From Candidatus Accumulibacter cognatus (GTDB taxonomy: Bacteria > Pseudomonadota > Gammaproteobacteria > Burkholderiales > Rhodocyclaceae), in the NCBI GenBank assembly GCA_013414765.1, contig CP058708.1, positions 1,235,553-1,299,552 on the forward strand: a DNA stretch of 64,000 bases, given 5' to 3'. A model generated the notes under the pieces. It saw only the letters and a program-made list of their open reading frames with translations. It did no database searches and had not been told where the DNA came from. This document shows, piece after piece, positions 2,916-64,000 of this stretch. The translations under genes and the position numbers were made by a program. Every line of letters begins with the position of its first letter. Position 1 is the first letter of the stretch.

Positions 2916-3799
2916 TTGACCGCACCCACAAGCTTCCCGTATTGCACCAGTGCTCCCTGCTGGGGCTGGCGCGTTCGACCGCCTACTACACGCCCCGCGA
3001 GGTCTCGGCGGAGGACCTGGCGCTGATGCGCCGGATCGACGAGTGACCCCTCGAGCACCCGTTCGCCGGCGCCCGCCTGTTGCGCGATCTGCTGCGCCCC
3101 GAGGGGTTCCAGGCCGGCCGCAGGCACATCGGCACCCTGATGGCGCGCATGGGGATCGAGGCCCTCTATCGAAAGCCCCACACCTCCCGTCGGCAGCGGG
3201 GGGATGAAATTTATTCGTACCTCCTGCGCGATCTCGCGATCGAGCGGCCCAATCAGGTATGGGCGGCGGACATCACGTACATTCCGATGCGCCGGGGCTT
3301 CCTCTACCTGTTCGCCGTGATCGACGGGTACTCGCGGCGGGTGCTCGCCTGGCGGCTCTCCAACACCCTGACGACCGACTTCTGTCGGGAAGCGGTGCGC
3401 GAAGCCATTCACCGGCACGGTTGCCCGGAGATCTTCAACACCGATCAGGGTGGCCAGTTCACCAGCGACGAGTTCACCGGTCTGCTCAAGGCGCACGATA
3501 TTCGGATCAGCAGGGACGGCAAGGGGTCCTGGCGGGAAAACAAGCGAAGCGCAGTTTCGCGAGCCGATAGGCGAGAGGGCGAAGCCCGTCACAACGTCTT
3601 TGTCGAGCGACTGTGGAAGACGGTCAAGTACGAGGAGGTGTATCTCAAGGCCTATGACAGCGTTGCCGATGCGAAAGCCAACTTGGCCACGTATCTGCGC
3701 TTCTACAACGAGCGACGCCCCCATCGCTCCCTGGATGGTCAGACGCCGGACGCCATCTACTTCGCGGCACTCGCGGCCACCACGCGACCGGCGGCGTAG
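2912..3799 (+). pseudogene. IS3-family OrfB DDE transposase, nonsense mutation plus in-frame insert
   Basis: Homologous along its length to the OrfB at 14109-14942. After RRIDE a TGA (3044-3046) replaces the Leu codon of the intact copy. Downstream the frame is open and keeps the rve core: WAADITYI, FNTDQGGQFTS and NVFVERLWK (D, D, E). About 54 bp (near 3539-3592) are inserted in frame just before NVFVERLWK, adding 18 residues between the second Asp and the catalytic Glu. A protein started downstream of the stop would lack the N-terminal region. Confidence 0.88.
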
Positions 3800-4044
3800 G
3801 ACATGAGGAAGGGGCTCCGTGGATTTGTGGACGATGCGCTGTCGCGCACCGGGCCGCTTGCCGTGGAAAAGTCTGGCGACTTTCCCACCGCGCGTCCCTT
3901 CGCCCACAAGCTCCACCGAGCTCTATTCGGTTCGGATAAACTCACAGAAGGTCAAAACCAAGCGCAACTCCGGTCACCTGACCACCACCGGCAGGGCTCC
4001 ACTTATCAAAGCAGATTTTCTGTCCAAACAAACGGGGCCACCTC

Positions 4045-4312
4045 TGTCGCCATGGTGACAGCGAAAGTCGGCCAGGGTGTGAGAGTTGACCTACACACCA
4101 CCCCGGATCCACCGGTATGCATCCTGCGCCTGCGTCAGCCGGGTGATGGTTCGGGCACTGCCGATACCTTCCAGCGTCGCGTAAAGCCACAGGGCATACA
4201 GTATTTCCGGGGCGATCGCAGCCAAGAACGCCCGGCTGGCGTGGGCGGTGTTGAAATACGGCGAGGATTTCCGGACGAGACCCGGCGCGGCCGAGGTCAG
4301 CCGACCCCACAA
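4045..4312 (-). pseudogene. IS1182-type transposase N-terminal remnant
   Basis: The reverse strand encodes LYALWLYATLEGIGSARTIT and LTQAQDAYRWIRGG, then after a two-base frameshift VNSHTLADFR. This is the usual IS1182-family pattern (LYA..DGVGSAR...HDAYRW.CGGV..NYHTL.DFR). The rest is missing because the IS3 element at 2560-4044 abuts it. Nothing can be expressed as a working transposase. Confidence 0.75.
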
Positions 4313-4721
4313 AAAGCGTCAGCAGAAGGAAGGAACCCCCATGCCGGTCGTCGCCGGCAACGAATCACCGATGCAATGCACGCGTTGATGTGAAGCGGGT
4401 TGGACCCGCGCCGGGAGTGCCTGATCAACTCCAGGGGAAGCAGCACTTCCCGACTAACGATTGAGGCCCCGGCGCACGTCTTTCATCCGGGTCCGGGCCA
4501 ACGGCCCAACATGACCGGTTGTAGTTTCGCAGTCCGCCATCTTCCCGATCAACAAACGCAGTCAATGACGAATCAAACCAGGAAACAGTGATGAACTAAA
4601 AAAACCCTCCTTGGCCCTTGCTTTTTGGGGAAGCCCTTGTAGCCCTTGTAGAAGCCGAGGCAACGGACTCGGCTTGATGCGGCCGGTCGCCAAGAGCGAC
4701 GGGTTGGGCATCATCTCTGGT
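4313..4721. other. No recognisable gene
   Basis: Open frames here are short, lack credible ribosome sites and resemble nothing I know. A 10-bp direct repeat (agcccttgta) lies near 4632-4651. The stretch borders the IS1182 remnant and may be decayed mobile DNA. Confidence 0.5.
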
Positions 4722-5120
4722 CTACGTTGGGAATCTCTCGAATTCAGGAAGCTCATGAACATGCTTCATCCAGTCGAGCCGCTCGGCCGTCTGTATTTGC
4801 ACTGTCGGCGGTAGCGCCTCAGGATGGTCGAGAGTCGAGGACTGCACGTCGACAATTCCTGGAAGCGCGGCTGCATTCCGGTAGAACAACCCGCTTCCAC
4901 AGTCAGCGCAGAAGCTGCGCATAGCGGTACCTGACGAGTTGATAGTCTTCGGCTGCCCTTTCTTCAGCGTCAAGGCGGTTTCAGGAAACATCGCCCATGC
5001 CACCATCGGCGCGCCTGCACTTCGTCGGCAGTCGCTGCAATGGCATAACGCAACGACCTGTGGCTCCCCCGAGAGTTCATAGCGAATCCCGCCACATAAA
5101 CACTGTCCAGAGTAAGTCAT
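4722..5120 (-). CDS. GFA (CENP-V type) domain protein
   Basis: Small zinc-binding protein of the GFA family (glutathione-dependent formaldehyde-activating enzyme fold); members often have unknown substrates. Visible zinc ligands: CLCGGIRYE, CHCSDCRRSAGAP and FCADCGSGLF. I chose the ATG at 5120 (MTYSGQ), preceded by GTGGAG about 11 bases upstream, rather than the ATG at 5147. The product is 132 aa, normal for the family. It lies alone, pointing toward the mobile remnants. A second GFA gene is at 53466. Confidence 0.85.
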   Translation of the reverse strand: MTYSGQCLCGGIRYELSGEPQVVALCHCSDCRRSAGAPMVAWAMFPETALTLKKGQPKTINSSGTAMRSFCADCGSGLFYRNAAALPGIVDVQSSTLDHPEALPPTVQIQTAERLDWMKHVHELPEFERFPT

Positions 5121-5240
5121 CGCAGAATCTCCACGGTCTTCGACCAATTATTCACCAGACGCAAGCCAGATCCTTGACACTGATGAATCCCTTGCAGCCT
5201 AAAGGGGAGCCTCAAGACGCCCAACGCCCCGCATCACTTG

Positions 5241-5273
5241 CCGGCTAAAGCGGGCCAAGCCCGCTTTAGCCGG
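5241..5273. terminator. Long perfect hairpin downstream of the arylsulfatase gene
   Basis: CCGGCTAAAGCGGGC and its exact complement GCCCGCTTTAGCCGG are separated by CAA, a 15-bp perfect stem about 64 bp past the sulfatase stop. There is no clear T-run on either side, so it is either an atypical terminator or an mRNA 3'-end stabiliser. Confidence 0.55.
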
Positions 5274-5336
5274 TCAGGTGCATGCGGATGTTAGCTGGCT
5301 CACGGAAGACCATGTTCCGTGCGCTTGCTGGGGGTT

Positions 5337-7010
5337 TCAGTTCCCTACCGGCAGCGGAATGCTGACGCCTTCCTTCTGCAACTGCTCACGGACCCACTGG
5401 AACTTCTGGTAGTTCGATATCGTGATCGGGCCCGTGTAAGTCATGCTCTGCAGCTTGCGCGGCGGGTATTGCACGTACGTCTTCATCAGATTCTGGATCG
5501 CCTCGCTGATCGTGACCATCGTCCAGGTCCGCTCGGTAAAGTTGTTCATGAAGATGTCATAGCGCTCCTGTGGGTCGGCCCACAGGTCAAATACCTGCGG
5601 CGCAGTCGCGACGTACTTCTCTGGGCCCTTCCAGCCGAGGTTGCTGTCGACCGCCAGGCCGCCAGTCGGTTGCCCGTTGTCGCCGCGCAGGTTGAACACC
5701 GCTTTGTAATTACCGACACGCGCGGCGCCCGGGCTCAGTTCATCCTCAGTGAAGTAAAACCAGGACTTGCGGGCTGACTTACCGGTTCCGAACAGGACCG
5801 ACGTCATGTCGTAGCTGTCGAAGATGATCGGCTTGCCTTCCCGATCGTTCTTCGGCAACTGGACGCCGCCCAGGCTGGCGAAGGTTGCCATCAGGTCGAG
5901 ACCGCCCACGATGTCGTGATTGCGGGTGCCCGGCTTGATCTTGCCGGGCATGACCGCTATCGCGGGCACGCGGTTGCCGCCTTCTCGCACCGTGCCCTTG
6001 GTGCCGCGGAACGGTGTGTAGCCGGCGTCCGGATAGACGTCCTGCCAGGCACCGTTGTCGGTCGTGTAGAACACCAGCGTGTTCTTGTCGAGGCCGAGCG
6101 CCCGCAGCTTATCCATGATTCGGCCGATGCGCGTGTCGAGCTCGACGACTGAGTCGGCGTACTTGCTCTTCGACAGCGATTTGTACTGGAACTCGGGCGC
6201 CGGCAGGTTCGGCTGATGCACCTTCATGAAGTTGACATTGATGAAGAACGGCTTGCCGGGATTCTTGGCTGCCGTGTCAAGGAACTCGAGCGCTGCCTTT
6301 TCGACGTATCCGTCGAAAAATGGAATACCGACCACGCCGTCGGGGTAAGTCACGCCATGCAGCGTGACGGGCTTGCCCGGCTCGTCGACGTACTGGCCGT
6401 TGATCTTGAAGTCCTCCTTCAGCTTCTCGCCGGCCTTGCCGGACAGCGCGCCAATTGTCACTTTGTTGAACATCGCCCGCAGCTCCGGATCCATGTCCGG
6501 AAACCAGGTCGGGTCGCCGTAGGTGTAGGCGTTCAGGTGATACAGCCCGACGTACTTCATTTCGTCATAACCCTGCGCGTTCGGTAGCGCGTAGTCGGCT
6601 TCACCGAGGTGCCACTTGCCGGTGAAGTAGGTCTGGTAGCCGCCCTTCTTGAGCACGGACGCCAAGGTCCACTCCGCAGCGGGCAGGCCGCCGCCCTGTC
6701 CCTGGAAAGCGACCGTCGTCATGCCGCTTCGGTTCGGAATGCGTCCAGTCTGCATCGCCGCGCGGCCGGGCGTGCAGCTCGGCTGAGCGTAGAAGGAAAA
6801 GAACGTCATGCCCTCGGCGGCCATACGGTCGATGTTGGGCGTGGGCATGCCGCGTCCCTCACCGCCGCCGTAAGGTCCGAGATCGCCGTAACCGGTGTCG
6901 TCGGAGACAATAAATAGGATGTTGGGCCTCGACTGTGCGTTGCCAAGACTCGGGGCCATCGCTATCAACGTGAAGAGAATTCCCGCAATCAATGCCGTGA
7001 TTCTTTGCAT
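5337..7010 (-). CDS. Exported arylsulfatase (sulfatase family S1)
   Basis: Hydrolyses sulfate esters after conversion of a cysteine to formylglycine. Residues 1-25 form a signal peptide ending near GNAQ, implying periplasmic export. Metal-binding SDD is at 36-38. The modification motif C79-T-P-G-R fits CxPxR. TGKWHLG lies near 131 and TTDNGAW in the later metal site. The length of 557 aa is usual. It follows the HAD gene by 80 bp on the same strand and has a direct repeat directly upstream. The natural substrate is not evident. The needed formylglycine-generating enzyme is not in this window. Confidence 0.93.
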   Translation of the reverse strand: MQRITALIAGILFTLIAMAPSLGNAQSRPNILFIVSDDTGYGDLGPYGGGEGRGMPTPNIDRMAAEGMTFFSFYAQPSCTPGRAAMQTGRIPNRSGMTTVAFQGQGGGLPAAEWTLASVLKKGGYQTYFTGKWHLGEADYALPNAQGYDEMKYVGLYHLNAYTYGDPTWFPDMDPELRAMFNKVTIGALSGKAGEKLKEDFKINGQYVDEPGKPVTLHGVTYPDGVVGIPFFDGYVEKAALEFLDTAAKNPGKPFFINVNFMKVHQPNLPAPEFQYKSLSKSKYADSVVELDTRIGRIMDKLRALGLDKNTLVFYTTDNGAWQDVYPDAGYTPFRGTKGTVREGGNRVPAIAVMPGKIKPGTRNHDIVGGLDLMATFASLGGVQLPKNDREGKPIIFDSYDMTSVLFGTGKSARKSWFYFTEDELSPGAARVGNYKAVFNLRGDNGQPTGGLAVDSNLGWKGPEKYVATAPQVFDLWADPQERYDIFMNNFTERTWTMVTISEAIQNLMKTYVQYPPRKLQSMTYTGPITISNYQKFQWVREQLQKEGVSIPLPVGN

Positions 7011-7024
7011 TTCGACCTCCTGTA

Positions 7025-7063
7025 TTACGTTTGGAATACCGTTTTACGTTTGGAATACCGTTT
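7025..7063 (-). promoter_or_regulatory. Tandem 19-bp direct repeat upstream of the arylsulfatase
   Basis: TACGTTTGGAATACCGTTT occurs twice in immediate succession (period 19 bp), ending 15 bp before the sulfatase ATG. Two near-identical half sites on nearly the same helical face, in a gap of only 80 bp, suggest an operator or an mRNA leader element. No regulator can be named. Confidence 0.45.
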
Positions 7064-7089
7064 AAAAGCTTATCGCATCGGACGTCTGG

Positions 7090-8115
7090 TCATCTCTCGA
7101 AGACGAAGACCCGTTTCCAGTCTTTCTCCATGCTGATGACGACCCACCCCCTCTCTCCCGCTTCTTGCATCAACGTAGAGGGGAAAGTGCCGAACTTGGT
7201 GTCCGGCAGGCCGTTGGCAGGGCCATATGCATACTCCCTCCCAGCGTCATCATGGAGGACGAGCATCATCAGCCGCGCGCCGCCACCGGCACCGGCACCG
7301 GTCCACTCCAGCATCTCGCGGTCCCCGGCGGAGTTTCCGAACGCCGCGATCGGTCGCCTGCCGATGAACTTGTTTATACCGACGGGCTTGCCGGTCTTGT
7401 CGTCGATGAAATCGATCTGTGGAAGCCGGATCAATACCGGCGTGCCGTCCTTCATTTGATACTGGGTCTTGATGCTGGATCCGATCACTTGCTCGGGCGG
7501 AATGCCGTAAACCGAATCGGTCATCGGCCGCATGAACTCCACCCCACCGCCGGAGACGATGTAGGTCTTGAAGCCGTTGGCGCGCAGATACTTCAGGAGC
7601 TCGAGCATCGGCTGGTAGACAAGCTCAGTGTAGGGCCGTTTGAAACGCGGGTGACGGGCCTTGCCAAGCCACTCCTTCACGATCGCCTCGAACTCCGCGG
7701 TACTCATCCCGGTATGCGTGGCCATGACCAGCTCGACCAAGCCCTTCTCGCCCAACGCCGCCAGGGTATCGAAGTCATTGTCGAGCACCGCCTTGAAGGG
7801 CTGGGTGGTGTTCCACTCCGGGTGCTGGGATGCCAGCGCCTTCACCCTGTCCAGTGCGAAGGCGAGCTGGGTATACATCGGCTGCTCCGTCCACAGCGTT
7901 CCATCATTGTCGAAGGTGGCGATGCGCTCGGCGGGCGGCACAAAGTCCGGGGAGGCTCTCGTGGTCACCTTCGAGACAAACTCGATGACGGATTGCTTGG
8001 CCTTGCCATCGTTCCAGGATGGAAGCGGATCTGAGGTCTGGGCCATGACCAAGGCATTGAAGCCCAAGGCGAGGGTGAAGGTGAGTGCAGCGAGCAATAC
8101 ACGTTTCATCGTCAT
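7090..8115 (-). CDS. Exported HAD-superfamily hydrolase
   Basis: Predicted phosphatase of the haloacid-dehalogenase superfamily. MTMKRVLLAALTFTLALG is a signal peptide. Motif I is FDNDGTLW (nucleophile and acid Asp), motif II YIVSGGG, and the late acidic motif AFGNSAGDREML. I used the ATG at 8115, preceded by AAGGGAA six bases upstream, not the ATG at 8187. The product is 341 aa. HAD hydrolases beside sulfatases recur in bacteria, and these two are probably co-transcribed. The substrate is unknown. Confidence 0.85.
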   Translation of the reverse strand: MTMKRVLLAALTFTLALGFNALVMAQTSDPLPSWNDGKAKQSVIEFVSKVTTRASPDFVPPAERIATFDNDGTLWTEQPMYTQLAFALDRVKALASQHPEWNTTQPFKAVLDNDFDTLAALGEKGLVELVMATHTGMSTAEFEAIVKEWLGKARHPRFKRPYTELVYQPMLELLKYLRANGFKTYIVSGGGVEFMRPMTDSVYGIPPEQVIGSSIKTQYQMKDGTPVLIRLPQIDFIDDKTGKPVGINKFIGRRPIAAFGNSAGDREMLEWTGAGAGGGARLMMLVLHDDAGREYAYGPANGLPDTKFGTFPSTLMQEAGERGWVVISMEKDWKRVFVFER

Positions 8116-8163
8116 CTGTTCCCTTCGGTGGATGATGCGGAGCCAGCTACAGGCTGCCGGAGC

Positions 8164-8242
8164 GTGAAACGCCCAGTGAACCCGCAAGCGCCGCTTGCGG
8201 GCGGCCCAGTCCAGTTGACCAAGAGATTAACACACATTAGAG
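8164..8242 (-). other. Candidate attC site ending the membrane-protein cassette
   Basis: On the minus strand an R''-like box (CTCTAAT, 8242-8236) lies just after the ancestral stop of the broken membrane-protein cassette. It is one base from CTCTAAC, expected from that cassette's start TTAGAG. A 9-bp perfect stem (8181-8201) and a weak R' (GTTTCAC) follow. The R' box is poor, so this is tentative. It would be the far end of the visible array. Confidence 0.4.
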
Positions 8243-8416
8243 CAGGTATTAATTACTATGCCCCAAGGAAGAACAGCAATTCTCATTTTGGCAATGGTGG
8301 CTTTCTGTTCTCCTACCGAGCACCTGCAATAGATCCAGATTCAGGGAGTGGACTCCGCTCATGGCCGGCAGAAAGGCACTTTCCGGCGAACTCGCTCCAT
8401 TGCTTGAGTCAAAATG

Positions 8417-9621
8417 GGCGTTGGTGTAGTATATTGGCATGAACCCCGAAGTTCCGGGTCTGGCGGCAAGAAGAGGTGCGAGATGGCCATGCGGGTGAAC
8501 CCGGACACGGGCGAGGTGGGCGTAAAGCAGCGGTATCGGGTGACGAATTGGTCGGAGTACGACCGAGCGCTGGTCAATCGCGGCAATCTGACGATCTGGT
8601 TCGACGATGAAAGCCTTCGGGACAGCTGGACGCCTCCGCCGCCGGTGGGGCGCGGCACCCCTGGGCGGTACTCGGAGATCGCCCTCCAGACGTGCCTGAC
8701 GATCAAGGGACTGTTCCAGTTGCCTTACCGGGCGACGGAAGGCTTGGTGAGGTCGCTGATGCGCCTGTGCCACCTGGATTTGCCGGTACCCGACCACAGC
8801 TATATGTCGCGACGGGCAGCAGAGCTTTCGGTACAGATTCCGCGCCGGCCGCGCCCGGGACCGACGCATGTGGTGATTGATTCGACCGGGCTGAAGATTG
8901 TCGGTGAAGGCGAATGGGCGGAAGCGGGGTTTCGTGAAGCACCTCTTCACGCCGCTGCAGCCGGTCGGCTGTGCAAAGCCGACCGTGGGACGGTGCGCCA
9001 GCACGGGGTGGGCAAGCGGCGCACCTGGCGCAAGATCCATTTGGCCGTAGACGAAACTGCCAAGGACCTCATCTGCATTGAAGTGACCACGGCCGAGTGG
9101 AGCGACAGCGAGATCCTGCCCGGTCTGCTCGACTAGATCGAAGGCGAGATCGCCCAGGTATCGGCCGATGGCGCCTACGACAGCCACGGCTGCCACGCGG
9201 CCATCGCCGAGCGGAGCGCTCGTGCCACCCTTCCCCCCTCGGGAATGCGCCGTCGCTTGGGGAGACGATCATCCCCGTGATGCGATCCTCCAGGAGATCG
9301 AAGCCAAGGGAAGCCGTGGCTGGAAGAACGAGAGCGGCTACCACCGGCGCAGCATCGCCGAGAACAGGATGTACCGGCTGAAGCCACTGGGCGACCGACC
9401 GTACTCCCGGACCTTCAAGCGGCAAGTCACCGAAGCTCATGTCCCGGCCGCGATCCTCAACACCTTTACCTATCTCGGGATGCCGGCATCTGTCCGGGTA
9501 GGGCAAATTGCGCCTGCTGCATGAGAAAGGACGGGAAAAGAGGGAGAGCTTGCCGAAAACCAGGAATATAGCCATATGGGATGCGACTCTGGGGATTATG
9601 CCAATATACTACAGCGGCGCC
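8417..9621 (+). mobile_element. IS5-family (IS903-group-like) element, degenerate copy A
   Basis: Ends GGCGTTGGTGTAGTATATTG and its degenerate complement, flanked by the 9-bp duplication GTCAAAATG (8408-8416 and 9622-9630). A 9-bp duplication is typical of the IS903 group of IS5. It is longer than copies B and C (about 1136 bp) because of a 72-bp insert. It lies inside the MITE-like element at 8274-9641. Confidence 0.9.
8483..9524 (+). pseudogene. IS5-family transposase, multiply damaged
   Basis: Compared with the intact 322-aa copies at 29359 and 38662, it has three lesions. An in-frame 72-bp insert follows GEGEW (near 8918-8991). A TAG (9136) replaces the Gln after GLLD. One extra C in a C-run near 9235 shifts the frame. 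The parts keep the DDE-type core: VVIDSTGLKI, the Asp region SADGAYDSHG in another frame, and the late GYHRRSIAENRMYRLK. Nonfunctional. Confidence 0.9.
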
Positions 9622-59023: not shown

Positions 59024-59446
59024 CTAGCCGCCCTGCACCTTGCGTTCCAGCTTCTCGTCGAAGCGCGCCCGATCGATGATGAAGCGTTCGTGGCGGCCCT
59101 TGCCGATCAGTTCGACCCCGTCATGGGCTTCGACCTCGAAAGCCAACTTGCGGCCGTCAACGTGGGTCAGCTTCACCCGGACGGTCACCTCGAACCCGAC
59201 GGGCGTGGCGGCGCAATGGCTGATATCGATATGGGTGCCGACGGTCTGCTGGTCAGGCCAGTCGAGATAAGGGTTGATGGCCTGGATGCAGGTCCATTCC
59301 AGCAGGCCAACGAAATAGCCGGTCGCGAAAACTTGAGGCATCTGCCGAAACTCGGCGGATTCGGGGTAGAGGGCGGGAACGAGCTTCGACTCGGGAACAC
59401 GAAATTGAAAGGTCTGCTCGATTCCTGGTTCCAGGGGCTTCTTCAT
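59024..59446 (-). CDS. Hotdog-fold thioesterase (FlK-like)
   Basis: 140 aa. Hotdog features: FATGYFVGLLEWTCIQAINP (helix with Glu), TVGTHIDISHCAATPVGFEV and KLAFEVEAHDGVELIGKGRH. The order matches fluoroacetyl-CoA thioesterase-like proteins. ATG 59446 follows AAGGAGAACCCC. Substrate unknown. Confidence 0.85.
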   Translation of the reverse strand: MKKPLEPGIEQTFQFRVPESKLVPALYPESAEFRQMPQVFATGYFVGLLEWTCIQAINPYLDWPDQQTVGTHIDISHCAATPVGFEVTVRVKLTHVDGRKLAFEVEAHDGVELIGKGRHERFIIDRARFDEKLERKVQGG

Positions 59447-59689
59447 GGGGTTCTCCTTGGAGGGCGTCCGACATCCGTGGACGGTAGAAGGGGCCAGCAT
59501 AGTCGAATTTGTCGTCGGCGGGAGGGCATCGCGTCTTTCCTGGGCCGGTTCCAGGGGGCATATGCATAGCGTGCAGTCGTTCATTGGCCATCCTTCCCGA
59601 CCAGGACCCGCACCGAGCGCCGCTAGGTTCAGTAGGCACACGCCCAGTCCAGCAGTACGACCAGCCGGTTGGGAAGCCGATGAATAGGC

Positions 59690-59850
59690 GCGCGGGGGGT
59701 GGCGCGCGATCTCGGCCAGGGTGCCCGCGAGTTCCACCCCGGCCGAACTGGCTCCGACCACGGCGAAGGTGAACCAGGCGCGCCGCGCCTCGGGATCGGT
59801 TTCGCGCCCGGCGCGCTCTAAGGCGAGCAGGATCCGGCAGGTGGAGAATC
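59690..59850 (-). pseudogene. NADH dehydrogenase (Ndh-type) fragment
   Basis: RILLALERAGRETDPEARRA and WFTFAVVGASSAGVELAGTL then AEIARH is the second Rossmann region of type II NADH dehydrogenases, with the usual GGGPTG altered to GASSAG. Only this part is present, joined to other scraps. Confidence 0.75.
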
Positions 59851-59869
59851 ATTGGCTGGCCTGGACAGA

Positions 59870-60330
59870 GAGCCCCTCCCCCGCCTCGTGCCGCACGTGG
59901 GGAATGACCTCGCCGAAGCCGAGATCGTCCCTGCCCCGCAAGGCTTCCGCCAGAATGCCGATGACCCGCCGCTGATCCTTGCCGCACCGGGGGAAGACGG
60001 TGGAAGCCTTCCTTCTGTAGAGAGACGTTCAGTTCCCCCGGCGCCATCGACCCGGCGGCCGCCGTATCCGCCAAGAATGCGCGCCCTGCGCTCGCCTTCC
60101 ACCCACAGGGTGGCGCCGGTGCCGCGCTTGCCCAGTTCCAGGGCGCGGTCGGCGGTGCCGGGTTTGGCGAAGATTTCCAGGGTGCGGGCCTGCGCGGCCA
60201 TGGCCCGGGATTGCTGGGCGGGGCCGGAATGCGGGTCGATGATCAGCGGGCGAACACCGTGGCGCACCAGCTGGTTGGCGAGAAGCAGGCCGGTGGGGCC
60301 GGCACCGACGATGAGGACTTCGGTTTTAAT
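59870..60330 (-). pseudogene. FAD-dependent monooxygenase N-terminal remnant
   Basis: KTEVLIVGAGPTGLLLANQL is the FAD-binding start of PheA/TfdB-type hydroxylases, followed by SRAMAAQARTLEIFAK. A frameshift near 60070 and later GRDDLGFGEVIPHVRHEAGE in another frame show decay. The start is ATT (60330) after GGAGACTC, so the ATG seems lost too. Confidence 0.78.
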
Positions 60331-60406
60331 GATGAGTCTCCTGTTTGGATGGCGAACAGGGACAGGCATGGTCAGCGGCCCCCCTGAACATGCGGAAAGA
60401 GGCTGA

Positions 60407-60598
60407 TCACCCACAGCGGGGTGACGATTCCGTGCAGAGAGAAGCTGGCGCCGCAACCTCCGCGCCCGTGCCCTGCTCCGTCAGCCGCCACATCAGATGG
60501 GCGCTGGCCGCCAGGCCGTAGGGCGAAACGTCCGCCGGCACCCACAGGCTCGCCAGCGGCGGCGTGCGCATGCGGTAGGAGGAGGTCTCAGCCGACAT
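60407..60598 (-). CDS. Hypothetical 63-aa protein
   Basis: MSAETSSYRMRTPPLASLWV, then DVSPYGLAASAHLMWRLTEQ. It overlaps the end of the next gene by 11 bp, suggesting coupling. It may be the start of a longer protein lost at the monooxygenase junction. No family recognised. Confidence 0.4.
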   Translation of the reverse strand: MSAETSSYRMRTPPLASLWVPADVSPYGLAASAHLMWRLTEQGTGAEVAAPASLCTESSPRCG

Positions 60599-61031: not shown

Positions 61032-61743
61032 GGCGGTCTCCTTGTGGTGGCGCGGATCGGATACGTGCTGCATCGATCCGTTCTGCCACTTTCGCCTGCC
61101 GGGGTTGCACGACGGTTTCTTGAATTGCGGTTCGGATTTCGATTGAAATCTATCGTTGGTGAGGCGCTGGCGGCCGGGAAACGAGAGTCCTTGGAGGGCA
61201 TGGCCAAGGGGGATGCGTTCAGACTGTTGCCGGCCCGAAGCTGCCAACCAGGGTTACGAGCAAAAGATCACTCGAACGTCAGGCCTGCTCTGATTCTTAC
61301 CGAACCGGTGACGGGGACAACTCGGCCTGACCTGCCGTAGAGACCTCATCAGATGAGCGGCTGGTTTGTTACGGTCAGCAGTCTTTAGTGCAGGGAGATC
61401 GCTGATGACGGCAATGCATAGAAATCCTTGACAGCGTTCTGGCCCCACATCGCCCCGCGTTACTGTGGTTCGCCGACCTTTCTGGCCTTATCGTGCCCTG
61501 GCAGCCTGTACTGCCTTACGGTATGCGGCTATTCTCGATTCCAAAGGGCATCTGCAAGCCGGCTGGGTCTCCGTGTGCACTTGGCGTCAGACAGGCGATC
61601 AGCGGCTAATGCCCTGACCGCACCCCTATCAGGCACCATCCCGACCTCATCTGCCAGCTGAATCGAATCTCTCGAATTGGTTCTCGCACACACCACGAAA
61701 CACGCACAGCAGAGAGCTGTAGCAGCGTATCAATGTGATGTAA
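61032..61743. other. Gene-free stretch left of the RHH-methyltransferase operon
   Basis: About 700 bp in which I see no credible gene on either strand. Frames around 61428-61661 lack ribosome sites and family resemblance. It probably includes the operon promoter and an island boundary. Confidence 0.45.
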
Positions 61744-61755
61744 AATCATATGATT
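61744..61755. promoter_or_regulatory. Palindrome before the RHH gene (candidate autoregulatory operator)
   Basis: AATCATATGATT, a perfect 12-bp palindrome ending five bases before the RHH start codon, with further TGAT/ATGAT half-site-like words on both sides. RHH proteins usually bind such short palindromes and repress their own operon. Confidence 0.5.
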
Positions 61756-61760
61756 CTTAG

Positions 61761-61937
61761 ATGATTCTGACGGCCATGGCGGACACTATACGAACGACAG
61801 TCTTGGTTCTCGAAGATCTATGCGCTGAGTTGGCGAATGTTGCGGAATCTGGCCATGTGTCGACCTCATGGGTCATACACGACGCACTGAGGGCGTACCG
61901 GGCCAAGCGCTGCGCGAAGCAGGTAAAGACGCGATGA
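61761..61937 (+). CDS. Ribbon-helix-helix (CopG/Arc-like) small protein
   Basis: 58 aa: MILTAMADTIRTTVLVLEDL with an N-terminal strand of alternating polar/hydrophobic residues, then VSTSWVIHDALRAYRAKR, the second RHH helix (S.SWVIR.ALRAYL pattern). Its TGA overlaps the methyltransferase ATG (ATGA at 61934-61937), so the two are translationally coupled. Likely an autorepressor of the operon; antitoxin function is possible but no toxin partner is visible. Confidence 0.72.
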   Translation: MILTAMADTIRTTVLVLEDLCAELANVAESGHVSTSWVIHDALRAYRAKRCAKQVKTR

Positions 61938-63028
61938 CGCGCTCCGAGGGTTTCCGTATTACATCAACACCCTGTGGCGACTCTCTGGAGGCAACCCCGC
62001 AGAATGGCGAGTGCAAGCTTCATTCGGCATCGTGCACGACGCTGCCAAAGATTGTGAGCCTGTTCGCCGGAGCCGGCGGGCTTGATAGGGGCTTTAAAGA
62101 GGCTGGATTCACCATCTCTGTTGCGATCGATGTGGCCGATGCTGCCATCCGTACGCACAAGAAGAACTTCCCCCGTACCAAGGCAGTGGTGGGCGATCTC
62201 ATTGAGATGCAACCTGCGGGGGTTGTTGAACACGTGAAAGAAAGGCTCATGCCCGGGCAGCGCATCGCCGTAATCGGCGGGCCGCCCTGCCAGGGATTTT
62301 CGCGGGCCAATGTGAATTCCTTGACCAACGACCCTCGCAACAAGCTTCCCAAGCTGTATCTCGACATCGTTGAGGCACTTCAGAACTTATACACGGTGGA
62401 GTTCATCGTGTTCGAAAACGTGCTTGGCATCCGCGACAAGAAGCACGAAACAACCTACAAAGCACTTGTGAACGGGATCACTGCGCTGGGATTCGACGTC
62501 ACCGAGAAGGAGCTCTGCGCCATCGACTTCGGCGTGCCTCAGAACCGCTGGCGCGTTATTCTCTCAGGGATGCGCAGCGGCCAGTGCTACTCGCCGGTCA
62601 GACCGCGGAAACGCAAGGGATTTGCGACTGTCAGGCAGGCCATCGGCGGCCTCGAAGCGCCGGCCTATTTCAAGCGAAATCTTGATCCAAAGGACATCCC
62701 GGTGCATCCGAACCACTGGACCATGCAGCCAAAGTCCCCCCGGTTCGAGAACCCTGAGCCTGGAATCGCGGAGCAGCGCAGCTTCAAGCGGCTAGAGTGG
62801 GACGCTCCGAGCCGCACGATCGCGTTCGGGCACCGCGAAATCCACGTCCATCCGCATGGCCACCGTCGGCTGAGCATTTACGAGGCAATGCTTCTGCAGG
62901 GATTTCCGAAGGAGTTCGTCCTGGAAGGCAACCTGTCGGAGCAGGTCGAGCAGGTATCCAACGCTGTACCGCCGCCGCTTGCGCGGAGTGTCGCGCATGC
63001 AGTGAAGCGCGCACTACGCGGCCGCTAA
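61934..63028 (+). CDS. DNA cytosine-5 methyltransferase
   Basis: 364-aa m5C methyltransferase. Motif I LFAGAGGLDRGF (44-55), motif IV GGPPCQGFSRAN with the nucleophile C119, motif VI FENVLG (E161), motif VIII QNRWRV, and the C-terminal motif X NAVPPPLARSVAHAV. ATG 61934 is chosen because it overlaps the RHH stop and gives a normal length. The target-recognition region lies about residues 220-300; the DNA target cannot be read from sequence. Followed 2 bp later by a GHKL ATPase gene. Confidence 0.95.
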   Translation: MTRSEGFRITSTPCGDSLEATPQNGECKLHSASCTTLPKIVSLFAGAGGLDRGFKEAGFTISVAIDVADAAIRTHKKNFPRTKAVVGDLIEMQPAGVVEHVKERLMPGQRIAVIGGPPCQGFSRANVNSLTNDPRNKLPKLYLDIVEALQNLYTVEFIVFENVLGIRDKKHETTYKALVNGITALGFDVTEKELCAIDFGVPQNRWRVILSGMRSGQCYSPVRPRKRKGFATVRQAIGGLEAPAYFKRNLDPKDIPVHPNHWTMQPKSPRFENPEPGIAEQRSFKRLEWDAPSRTIAFGHREIHVHPHGHRRLSIYEAMLLQGFPKEFVLEGNLSEQVEQVSNAVPPPLARSVAHAVKRALRGR

Positions 63029-63030
63029 CA

Positions 63031-64000
63031 ATGCCCACGCAGCCCCCGCATGTCAGCGAGGTTCACGACGAACTTGGACTCGTCGCATCGATCAGGGCAA
63101 GCCATGGGACGCAGGACGTCGTCCGGACAACCCTGAAGACCGATGAGCGCGTGATCGCGCGCGTCACCGATGGCATCTACAGGCAGCCGGGGTCGGCCCT
63201 GCGCGAGTTGATATCCAATGCCTACGACGCCGATGCAAGCCGCGTTGTCATCAAGACCGACGCCCCGCGATTCGAGCGCATATTGGTGGAAGACGACGGG
63301 CACGGGATGGGTCCCGAAGCGCTGGCCCACCTCCTGCTCCACATTGGCGGCAGCGCGAAGCGCAGCGAAGCCGGCCCAGGGCTTGGCGTTACTGCGTCGA
63401 ACGACCCGATGCGCAGTCCCAATGGCCGGCGCCTCATCGGCAAGATCGGTATCGGCCTATTCTCGGTCTCACAGCTGACCCACAGTTTCCAGATCATTAC
63501 CAAGGTCAAGGGAGACGACCACAGAACTGTTGCCACCGTTGCCTTGCGGCAGTACGCCGACGAAGACCTGGCGCCAAGCCACGATGGCGAGAAGAAGTTC
63601 GAATCCGGCAAGGTGAACATCTGGCGCGAGAAGGCCGCTGATACTACCTCGCATGGCACGACGATCATATTGACCAGCATCCGGCCGCAGGCGCGCGACA
63701 CGCTGCGCAGCCGCGATATCTGGAACGCGATCGAGCAGAACGAATCGTACTCCGAGTCGGAGGAGAAGCTGGCCATCGAGCCGCCGCGTTTCCATATTGG
63801 GCGGGTGGATACCAGCGGCGATCTGCTGAAGAAGACGGAGGGCAAGATCTGGGCGCTGCCGTGGGAGAAAGGCGATCCGCCGGGCGAAGCTTTCGCCAAG
63901 CTGGTGCAGTCCGTCTGGGACGAAGTGGAACAGTCCACGCCAAATCCGCAGCTCGACCGCATCTTCGACTACTACCTGCGGATGGTGTGGCAGCTTAGCC
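63031..64000 (+). CDS. GHKL (MORC/MutL/Hsp90-like) ATPase, partial
   Basis: First 323 residues of a larger protein. Bergerat fold: N box LRELISNAYDADAS (E59, N63, D66), G1 VEDDGHGMG (D88-G92), G2 RLIGKIGIGLFSVSQL. Such ATPases next to C5 methyltransferases were described as R-M-like systems related to the origin of MORC proteins (Iyer, Abhiman and Aravind), usually with further nuclease, Z1 or helicase genes. The remainder and partners lie beyond base 64000. Spacing implies one operon with the methyltransferase. Confidence 0.88.
   Translation, partial: MPTQPPHVSEVHDELGLVASIRASHGTQDVVRTTLKTDERVIARVTDGIYRQPGSALRELISNAYDADASRVVIKTDAPRFERILVEDDGHGMGPEALAHLLLHIGGSAKRSEAGPGLGVTASNDPMRSPNGRRLIGKIGIGLFSVSQLTHSFQIITKVKGDDHRTVATVALRQYADEDLAPSHDGEKKFESGKVNIWREKAADTTSHGTTIILTSIRPQARDTLRSRDIWNAIEQNESYSESEEKLAIEPPRFHIGRVDTSGDLLKKTEGKIWALPWEKGDPPGEAFAKLVQSVWDEVEQSTPNPQLDRIFDYYLRMVWQLS

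Follow-up and report, generated by a model that had tools for sequence, protein, structure and literature searches.

A candidate restriction-like cassette pairing a GHKL ATPase with a PP_RS20740-family protein beside a C5 methylase in Candidatus Accumulibacter cognatus

Introduction

GHKL ATPases of the MORC and paraMORC types occur in neighborhoods that resemble R-M systems. In the sections of Iyer, Abhiman, and Aravind (2008, PMC2292703) used here, about 70% of MORC neighborhoods hold a superfamily II helicase, and the paraMORC5 family carries an HxH motif. A comparable layout is built around the HEF_HK/Response_reg_2 duplet, with a C5 methylase and a Vsr gene that most often lies directly downstream of the partner, according to the portion of Bellieny-Rabelo (2021, PMC8011034) that describes it. 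VcSduA, a Shedu protein with a GHKL domain of the paraMORC3 type, is anti-phage and requires its ATPase, as stated in the available part of PMC12137116. Proteins of the BbrUII/HgiDII family (NF050001) contain an ATPase domain of the same kind, and a C5 methylase lies beside both members compared here (L101 and L102).

We have analyzed a locus at the right end of a 64-kb stretch of the genome of Candidatus Accumulibacter cognatus, referred to as the window (C1:1235553-1299552 of a single-contig, 5.17-Mb genome), and have read its right flank from the same contig. The sequence-only reading took the pairing of a methylase with a MORC-like GHKL ATPase to be a familiar R-M-like theme, and this theme is indeed already described (PMC2292703, in part). 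The theme is known; judged by sequence, the proteins are set apart from HEF_HK/Response_reg_2, and their kinship with BbrUII lies in the ATPase domain only. No paper on a methylase-GHKL-PP trio was found in the open-access library searched.

Organization of the cassette

The first gene (61761-61937, + strand) is listed as a 58-residue RHH (CopG-type) protein, putatively DNA-binding, with a match to Pfam RHH_1 (PF01402, 23.9 bits against a cut-off of 20.5). It is followed by a C5 cytosine DNA methylase of 364 residues (61934-63028, + strand; PF00145, 3.3e-48). The methylase ATG at 61934-61936 overlaps the RHH stop TGA at 61935-61937, and the ATG of the GHKL gene, at 63031, lies two bases past the methylase stop TAA (63026-63028), so both junctions are as the sequence-only reading described them. 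The GHKL gene (63031-65007, + strand) encodes 658 residues with a HATPase_c_3 match in Pfam (1.6e-14), and the window ends inside it, at 64000. In extrapolated window coordinates, an ATGA overlap leads from the GHKL gene into the gene for a 390-residue PP_RS20740-family protein, hereafter PP (65004-66176, + strand), which belongs to NF047698 with 389 bits against a cut-off of 200; the family name gives no function. A convergent Vsr gene (about 66173-66577, also extrapolated, - strand) overlaps the PP gene slightly. Its start was chosen where the Vsr domain begins, and the Vsr endonuclease assignment scores 149.6 bits with TIGR00632 against a cut-off of 97.85. An AraC-type regulator, a Methyltransf_11-type methyltransferase, and other ordinary genes lie to the right of Vsr. 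A nuclease or helicase partner had been anticipated downstream; the extension supplies PP and Vsr, and neither Pfam nor NCBIfam recognizes a nuclease domain in GHKL or PP.

GC content is 0.56-0.64 over about 61000-67000; the 1 kb profiled to its left has 0.67-0.70, and the 2.5 kb to its right 0.63-0.72. The locus had been proposed as the left end of a probable defense island. Flanking ORFs were chosen by rule (a minimum of 120 residues and GC-rich third positions), a procedure that may miss some genes, and PADLOC matched one of the 50, at an unspecified position, to its mad2 model. Because the other 49 have no PADLOC match, the defense island is unsupported, and the locus looks like a lone acquired cassette rather than an island edge.

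Two further observations concern the surrounding genome. To the left of the cassette, 59256-60456 on the - strand looks like a decayed monooxygenase gene: the start of FAD_binding_3 falls in an ORF at 59821-60456 and likely continues in another frame, and the second ORF of this region has no Pfam match. A second, partial C5 methylase match lies at G000:C1:1680976-1681506.

Features of the encoded proteins

The methylases of the related loci carry PCQ in 59 of 63 sequences and EN[VP] in all 63. GHKL, a MutL/Hsp90-like ATPase, is invariant (1.00 in 67 sequences) at E59, N63, D88, G90, G92, G137, G140, G142, and T210, which, by analogy with the GHKL family, we take to be ATPase residues. In its C-terminal part, H511 is present in 67/67 sequences and an HPH motif in 54/67. 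A structure model of GHKL was too poor for use (pLDDT 53.1) and leaves the C-terminal two thirds unmodeled; PADLOC REase_II models match the protein in the ATPase region only.

PP is predicted to adopt a methyltransferase (Rossmann-type) fold. The usual glycine-rich SAM loop, GxGxG, occurs anywhere in just five of the 73 sequences, and LPGxD is found instead in 66. A loose PD...(D/E)xK pattern fits 15 of the 73 and is therefore not conserved. Compared by sequence with solved structures, PP yields one match (E 0.87), and PADLOC 2023 has no match to the window protein. The match of a PP relative to Cas12d (PADLOC, E 0.011) is weak and surely due to chance. In P. putida, PP_RS20740 is called a hypothetical protein and carries V338F in a furfural-adapted strain (PMC9630843, in the passages drawn on); selection of this substitution during furfural adaptation is an odd phenotype for a component of a DNA system.

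These features bear on whether the pair cuts DNA. GHKL and PP might clamp or silence unmarked DNA without cleaving it, as could be read from the lack of a recognized nuclease motif, the poorly kept PD...(D/E)xK pattern, the MutL/Hsp90-like ATPase, and the predicted fold of PP. We consider this distinctly unlikely. An absent recognized domain is weak evidence, with two thirds of GHKL unmodeled, and the conserved C-terminal histidines (H511 and HPH) could form an unfamiliar active site.

Comparison with described systems

As in the MORC/paraMORC neighborhoods of PMC2292703, so far as its text was available, GHKL lies here beside a C5 methylase, often with Vsr, in patchy and mobile loci. Compared with the helicase-rich MORC neighborhoods of that article, a helicase-type neighbor cluster is found in four loci here, with confirmation in one (L033). 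The same sections make no mention of a PP_RS20740-like partner among MORC/paraMORC systems. The HPH motif may correspond to the paraMORC5 HxH as described there (PMC2292703, in part). With respect to MORC proper, the GHKL ATPase motifs are present and conserved in the 67 sequences, but the S5 motif GhXhhpXXRhl is missing: the corresponding stretch, aligned by eye, reads GLDSALNIDRESF, with R one residue too far.

The HEF_HK/Response_reg_2 systems share the methylase-GHKL-partner-Vsr layout, in the excerpted account of PMC8011034. No Pfam match to HEF_HK (PF19191) or Response_reg_2 (PF19192) is obtained at E ≤ 1 in GHKL or PP, and a PP profile run against eight such loci, in which the HK-like genes are cut short, gives a best E of 0.08. 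With BbrUII/HgiDII the ATPase domain is homologous (hhalign 99.1% over 170 columns), but GHKL scores 69.4 bits with NF050001, below the cut-off of 550, and has no similarity past that domain; in L101 and L102, whose flanks are short, no PP-like ORF was found. VcSduA differs in having its own DUF4263 nuclease (PMC12137116, in part), whereas Pfam finds none in GHKL. Druantia type III, which has DruE and DruH beside DruM, was also considered and rejected: the methylase matches DruM2 (1.9e-90), but the other four proteins match no Druantia model.

Distribution and neighborhood

Searches with PP proteins and alignments recovered ten viral contigs, a single additional genome from the phylum sample, and 70 loci across many phyla. 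A search of genome contigs with one PP protein found no relative; with a 12-sequence alignment, 70 of 109 pattern matches were confirmed. The neighborhood set comprises 82 loci (L002 and L006-L086), of which 81 are distinct, L006 and L066 being one place; L001 and L003-L005, from the same genome, were excluded from the counts. Occurrence is patchy: 1/61 relatives, 2/398 genomes of the phylum (the window's own genome included), and 1/385 genomes in the class of G320, which is G320 itself. Neither of two PP queries matched anything among 72,556 plasmid and 50,697 phage records, and one Proteus locus had no match to E. coli genomes by DNA similarity.

GHKL adjoins PP in 77 of the 82 loci; four of the remaining five are at contig edges, and the fifth, L030, has only a piece of PP. 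In 65 loci, counting the 57-residue remnant of L063, a C5 methylase is present within 5 kb; it may also follow PP on the opposite strand (L066, L074, and L075). Unannotated ORFs within six genes were grouped by single linkage, with a Pfam check on some members only. Methylases form the largest cluster, with 64 loci; an integrase type follows with 14 and Vsr with 13. The two clusters after these extend over six and five loci, and one containing SNF2-type helicases over four. Pfam confirms integrases at L008, L016, L017, and L064, with a phage integrase following PP in L017, and a phage tail hub gene lies near L007 and L012.

Vsr is found within 5 kb in only 16/82 loci, which weighs against a role of Vsr as the restriction nuclease with GHKL as a MutL-like helper. 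Such a role is suggested by the position of Vsr directly after PP in the window cassette, and by Caulobacter, where the SOS response that follows loss of a C5 methylase needs a Vsr-like protein (PMC12907096, in part). A section heading of the same article describes the Caulobacter effect as MutL-independent, and we regard this assignment as highly improbable.

Seventeen of the 82 loci have no methylase within 5 kb. Several of these are contig edges; the flank is present in L032, L034, L037, L044, L081, and L085, and in L033 the methylase is only found about 6 kb away. A C5 methylase is encoded somewhere in the genome of each of six loci examined (five without a near methylase, and L065, whose methylase is ~2 kb away). 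Because 10 of 14 control genomes encode one as well, its presence in the six is uninformative. In actinobacterial loci without a near methylase, other enzymes lie beside the GHKL-PP pair. In L033 (Nocardioides, 3260-9134), Pfam identifies a SNF2-type helicase and NOV_C preceding GHKL-PP, and L034 (Nocardioides, 3133-9134) has a relative of this helicase by clustering, with a similar start. Both arrangements come nearer to the systems with helicases in Iyer 2008 (PMC2292703, in the sections used). L032 has NOV_C and an HNH-like match beside the pair. In L044 (Streptomyces sp. ACA25, 4760-9194), GHKL-PP stands directly behind an HNH endonuclease gene, with no methylase within 5 kb, and this locus may represent a variant that has a nuclease of its own.

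Co-divergence and disrupted copies

Conservation and co-divergence were evaluated on 73 PP, 67 GHKL, and 63 methylase sequences, after length and score limits and with L006 excluded. GHKL and PP are spaced by at most 20 bp in all 64 loci where both are full length, and they co-diverge with rho 0.815 over these 64 loci (permutation maximum 0.278). For methylase and PP, rho is 0.298 over 60 loci (permutation maximum 0.280), and for methylase and GHKL it is 0.254 over 58 loci (permutation maximum 0.274), a value reached by 2/500 permutations. Each locus was represented by its best methylase, adjacent or not, a choice that weakens the methylase correlations. Within the main methylase clade (39 loci), the values are 0.839 for GHKL-PP, 0.427 for methylase-PP, and 0.390 for methylase-GHKL. 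Because GHKL and PP co-diverge tightly and the methylase only loosely, we conclude that, by the sequence record, GHKL-PP behaves as an obligate unit and the methylase as an exchangeable companion.

Disrupted copies occur in both directions. In L063 (Roseovarius lutimaris, 7994-8167) the last 50 residues of the methylase remain next to full-length GHKL and PP. The GHKL or PP gene is split in L014, L031, L067, and L080, each with a full-length methylase ORF alongside; in L014, a prophage copy on a viral contig (2246-4230), the GHKL gene is two ORFs and the methylase and PP are full length. A broken effector with an intact methylase is the direction that a protective methylase would allow, but four cases prove nothing, and the attempt to derive methylase dependence from broken copies was set aside as resting on too few cases for a decision.

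The survival of L063 with a methylase remnant and an intact pair would also suit an epigenetic device without restriction, in which GHKL and PP would serve as helpers or regulators of the methylase, or would read methylation for gene control, with Vsr as plain repair. The unrecognized nuclease and the predicted methyltransferase fold of PP point the same way. Weak co-divergence with the methylase is odd for a methylase accessory, however, and several GHKL-PP loci lack a near methylase; prophage and integrase contexts likewise argue against such a device, which we judge unlikely, if the least so of the alternatives considered. The exchangeability of the methylase can be accommodated in another way, to which we assign a small probability. 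The methylase would mark self, and a nuclease-free effector, an obligate pair of a MutL/Hsp90-type clamp and a pseudo-methyltransferase reader, would engage unmarked DNA by way of the methyltransferase fold and silence or clamp it, in a bacterial parallel to MORC action on methylated DNA. The methylase would then be exchangeable because the pair reads the mark and not the site.

The RHH gene and its upstream region

The closest relative found, L017 from a Sinobacteraceae MAG, has a PP 58% identical to that of the window and an RHH protein 51% identical over 41 residues, whose gene also overlaps the methylase by ATGA. The in-operon RHH gene coupled to the methylase, which the sequence-only reading singled out as less familiar, is therefore not an accident of one genome. 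With regard to the proposed search for conserved RHH-methylase-GHKL trios, 95 short ORFs (35-110 residues, ending near the methylase start) from 62 methylase loci were compared with Pfam, and RHH_1 is present in two of these loci, the window cassette and L017. Single weak matches to RHH_3 (0.016) and 56B_RHH (0.031) come from unspecified loci. The scanned ORFs of L007, a viral contig whose PP identity (49%) is next among the viral contigs, contain no RHH_1. As RHH_1, among the ORFs scanned, occurs in the window cassette and L017 only, and in none of those of L007, RHH is a putative lineage-specific regulator.

The L017 homologue aligns from ATG 61776 and begins with GTG behind a good Shine-Dalgarno sequence; by this alignment the window gene may start at 61776 (53 residues) instead of 61761. 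The perfect 12-bp palindrome AATCATATGATT (61744-61755) lies, as had been reported, five bases 5' of the ATG at 61761, and would lie 20 bases 5' of the alternative start. Across the window there are 28 perfect palindromes of 12 bp, so that AATCATATGATT alone is close to chance, and it has no counterpart in L017. The palindrome is weak evidence, and we have demoted it as key operator. The 15-bp element ATCAATGTGATGTAA (61729-61743, + strand), which contains ATCA-3-TGAT, is identical upstream of both RHH genes (L017 4669-4683). Mononucleotide shuffling of the window upstream stretch, repeated 2000 times, gave no word in common with L017 longer than 13. We infer that it may serve as an operator or promoter element through which RHH would repress its own gene. 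A sigma-70 scan of 61500-62000 gives no promoter-like site on the + strand and one on the - strand, and so places no promoter for the cassette.

Discussion

On balance, the evidence leans modestly toward a horizontally acquired, restriction-like self/non-self cassette with a GHKL-PP effector. Gene content, order, conservation, and co-divergence are observed and the PP fold is predicted; from these we infer the following mechanism. The C5 methylase would mark host DNA, and may supply specificity, since it is the more exchangeable part. GHKL and PP would work jointly, as an obligate effector of two proteins, to engage DNA without the mark and to block or break it with the use of ATP. Vsr, where present, would repair T:G mismatches arising from deaminated 5-methylcytosine. 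In its lineage, RHH probably represses its own promoter, and this repression would set methylase and effector expression on entry into a new host.

Restriction-like exclusion is the likeliest role because of the mobility, patchiness, methylase companionship, and Vsr of these loci, and the anti-phage activity of VcSduA (PMC12137116, in part). Against it stand the lack of a recognized nuclease, the methylase remnant of L063, the loci without a near methylase, the absence of matches in the plasmid and phage records searched, and the 49 of 50 flanking ORFs without a PADLOC match.

The cassette is a small one that hops between phyla, also in prophages, and joins a DNA methylase to a two-protein effector without a named activity. 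If the effector restricts, an active site would lie in proteins without a recognized nuclease; if it does not cut, bacterial GHKL ATPases would be linked to the silencing role of the eukaryotic MORCs. How such systems switch on in a new host could be asked concretely with the two RHH-bearing cassettes.
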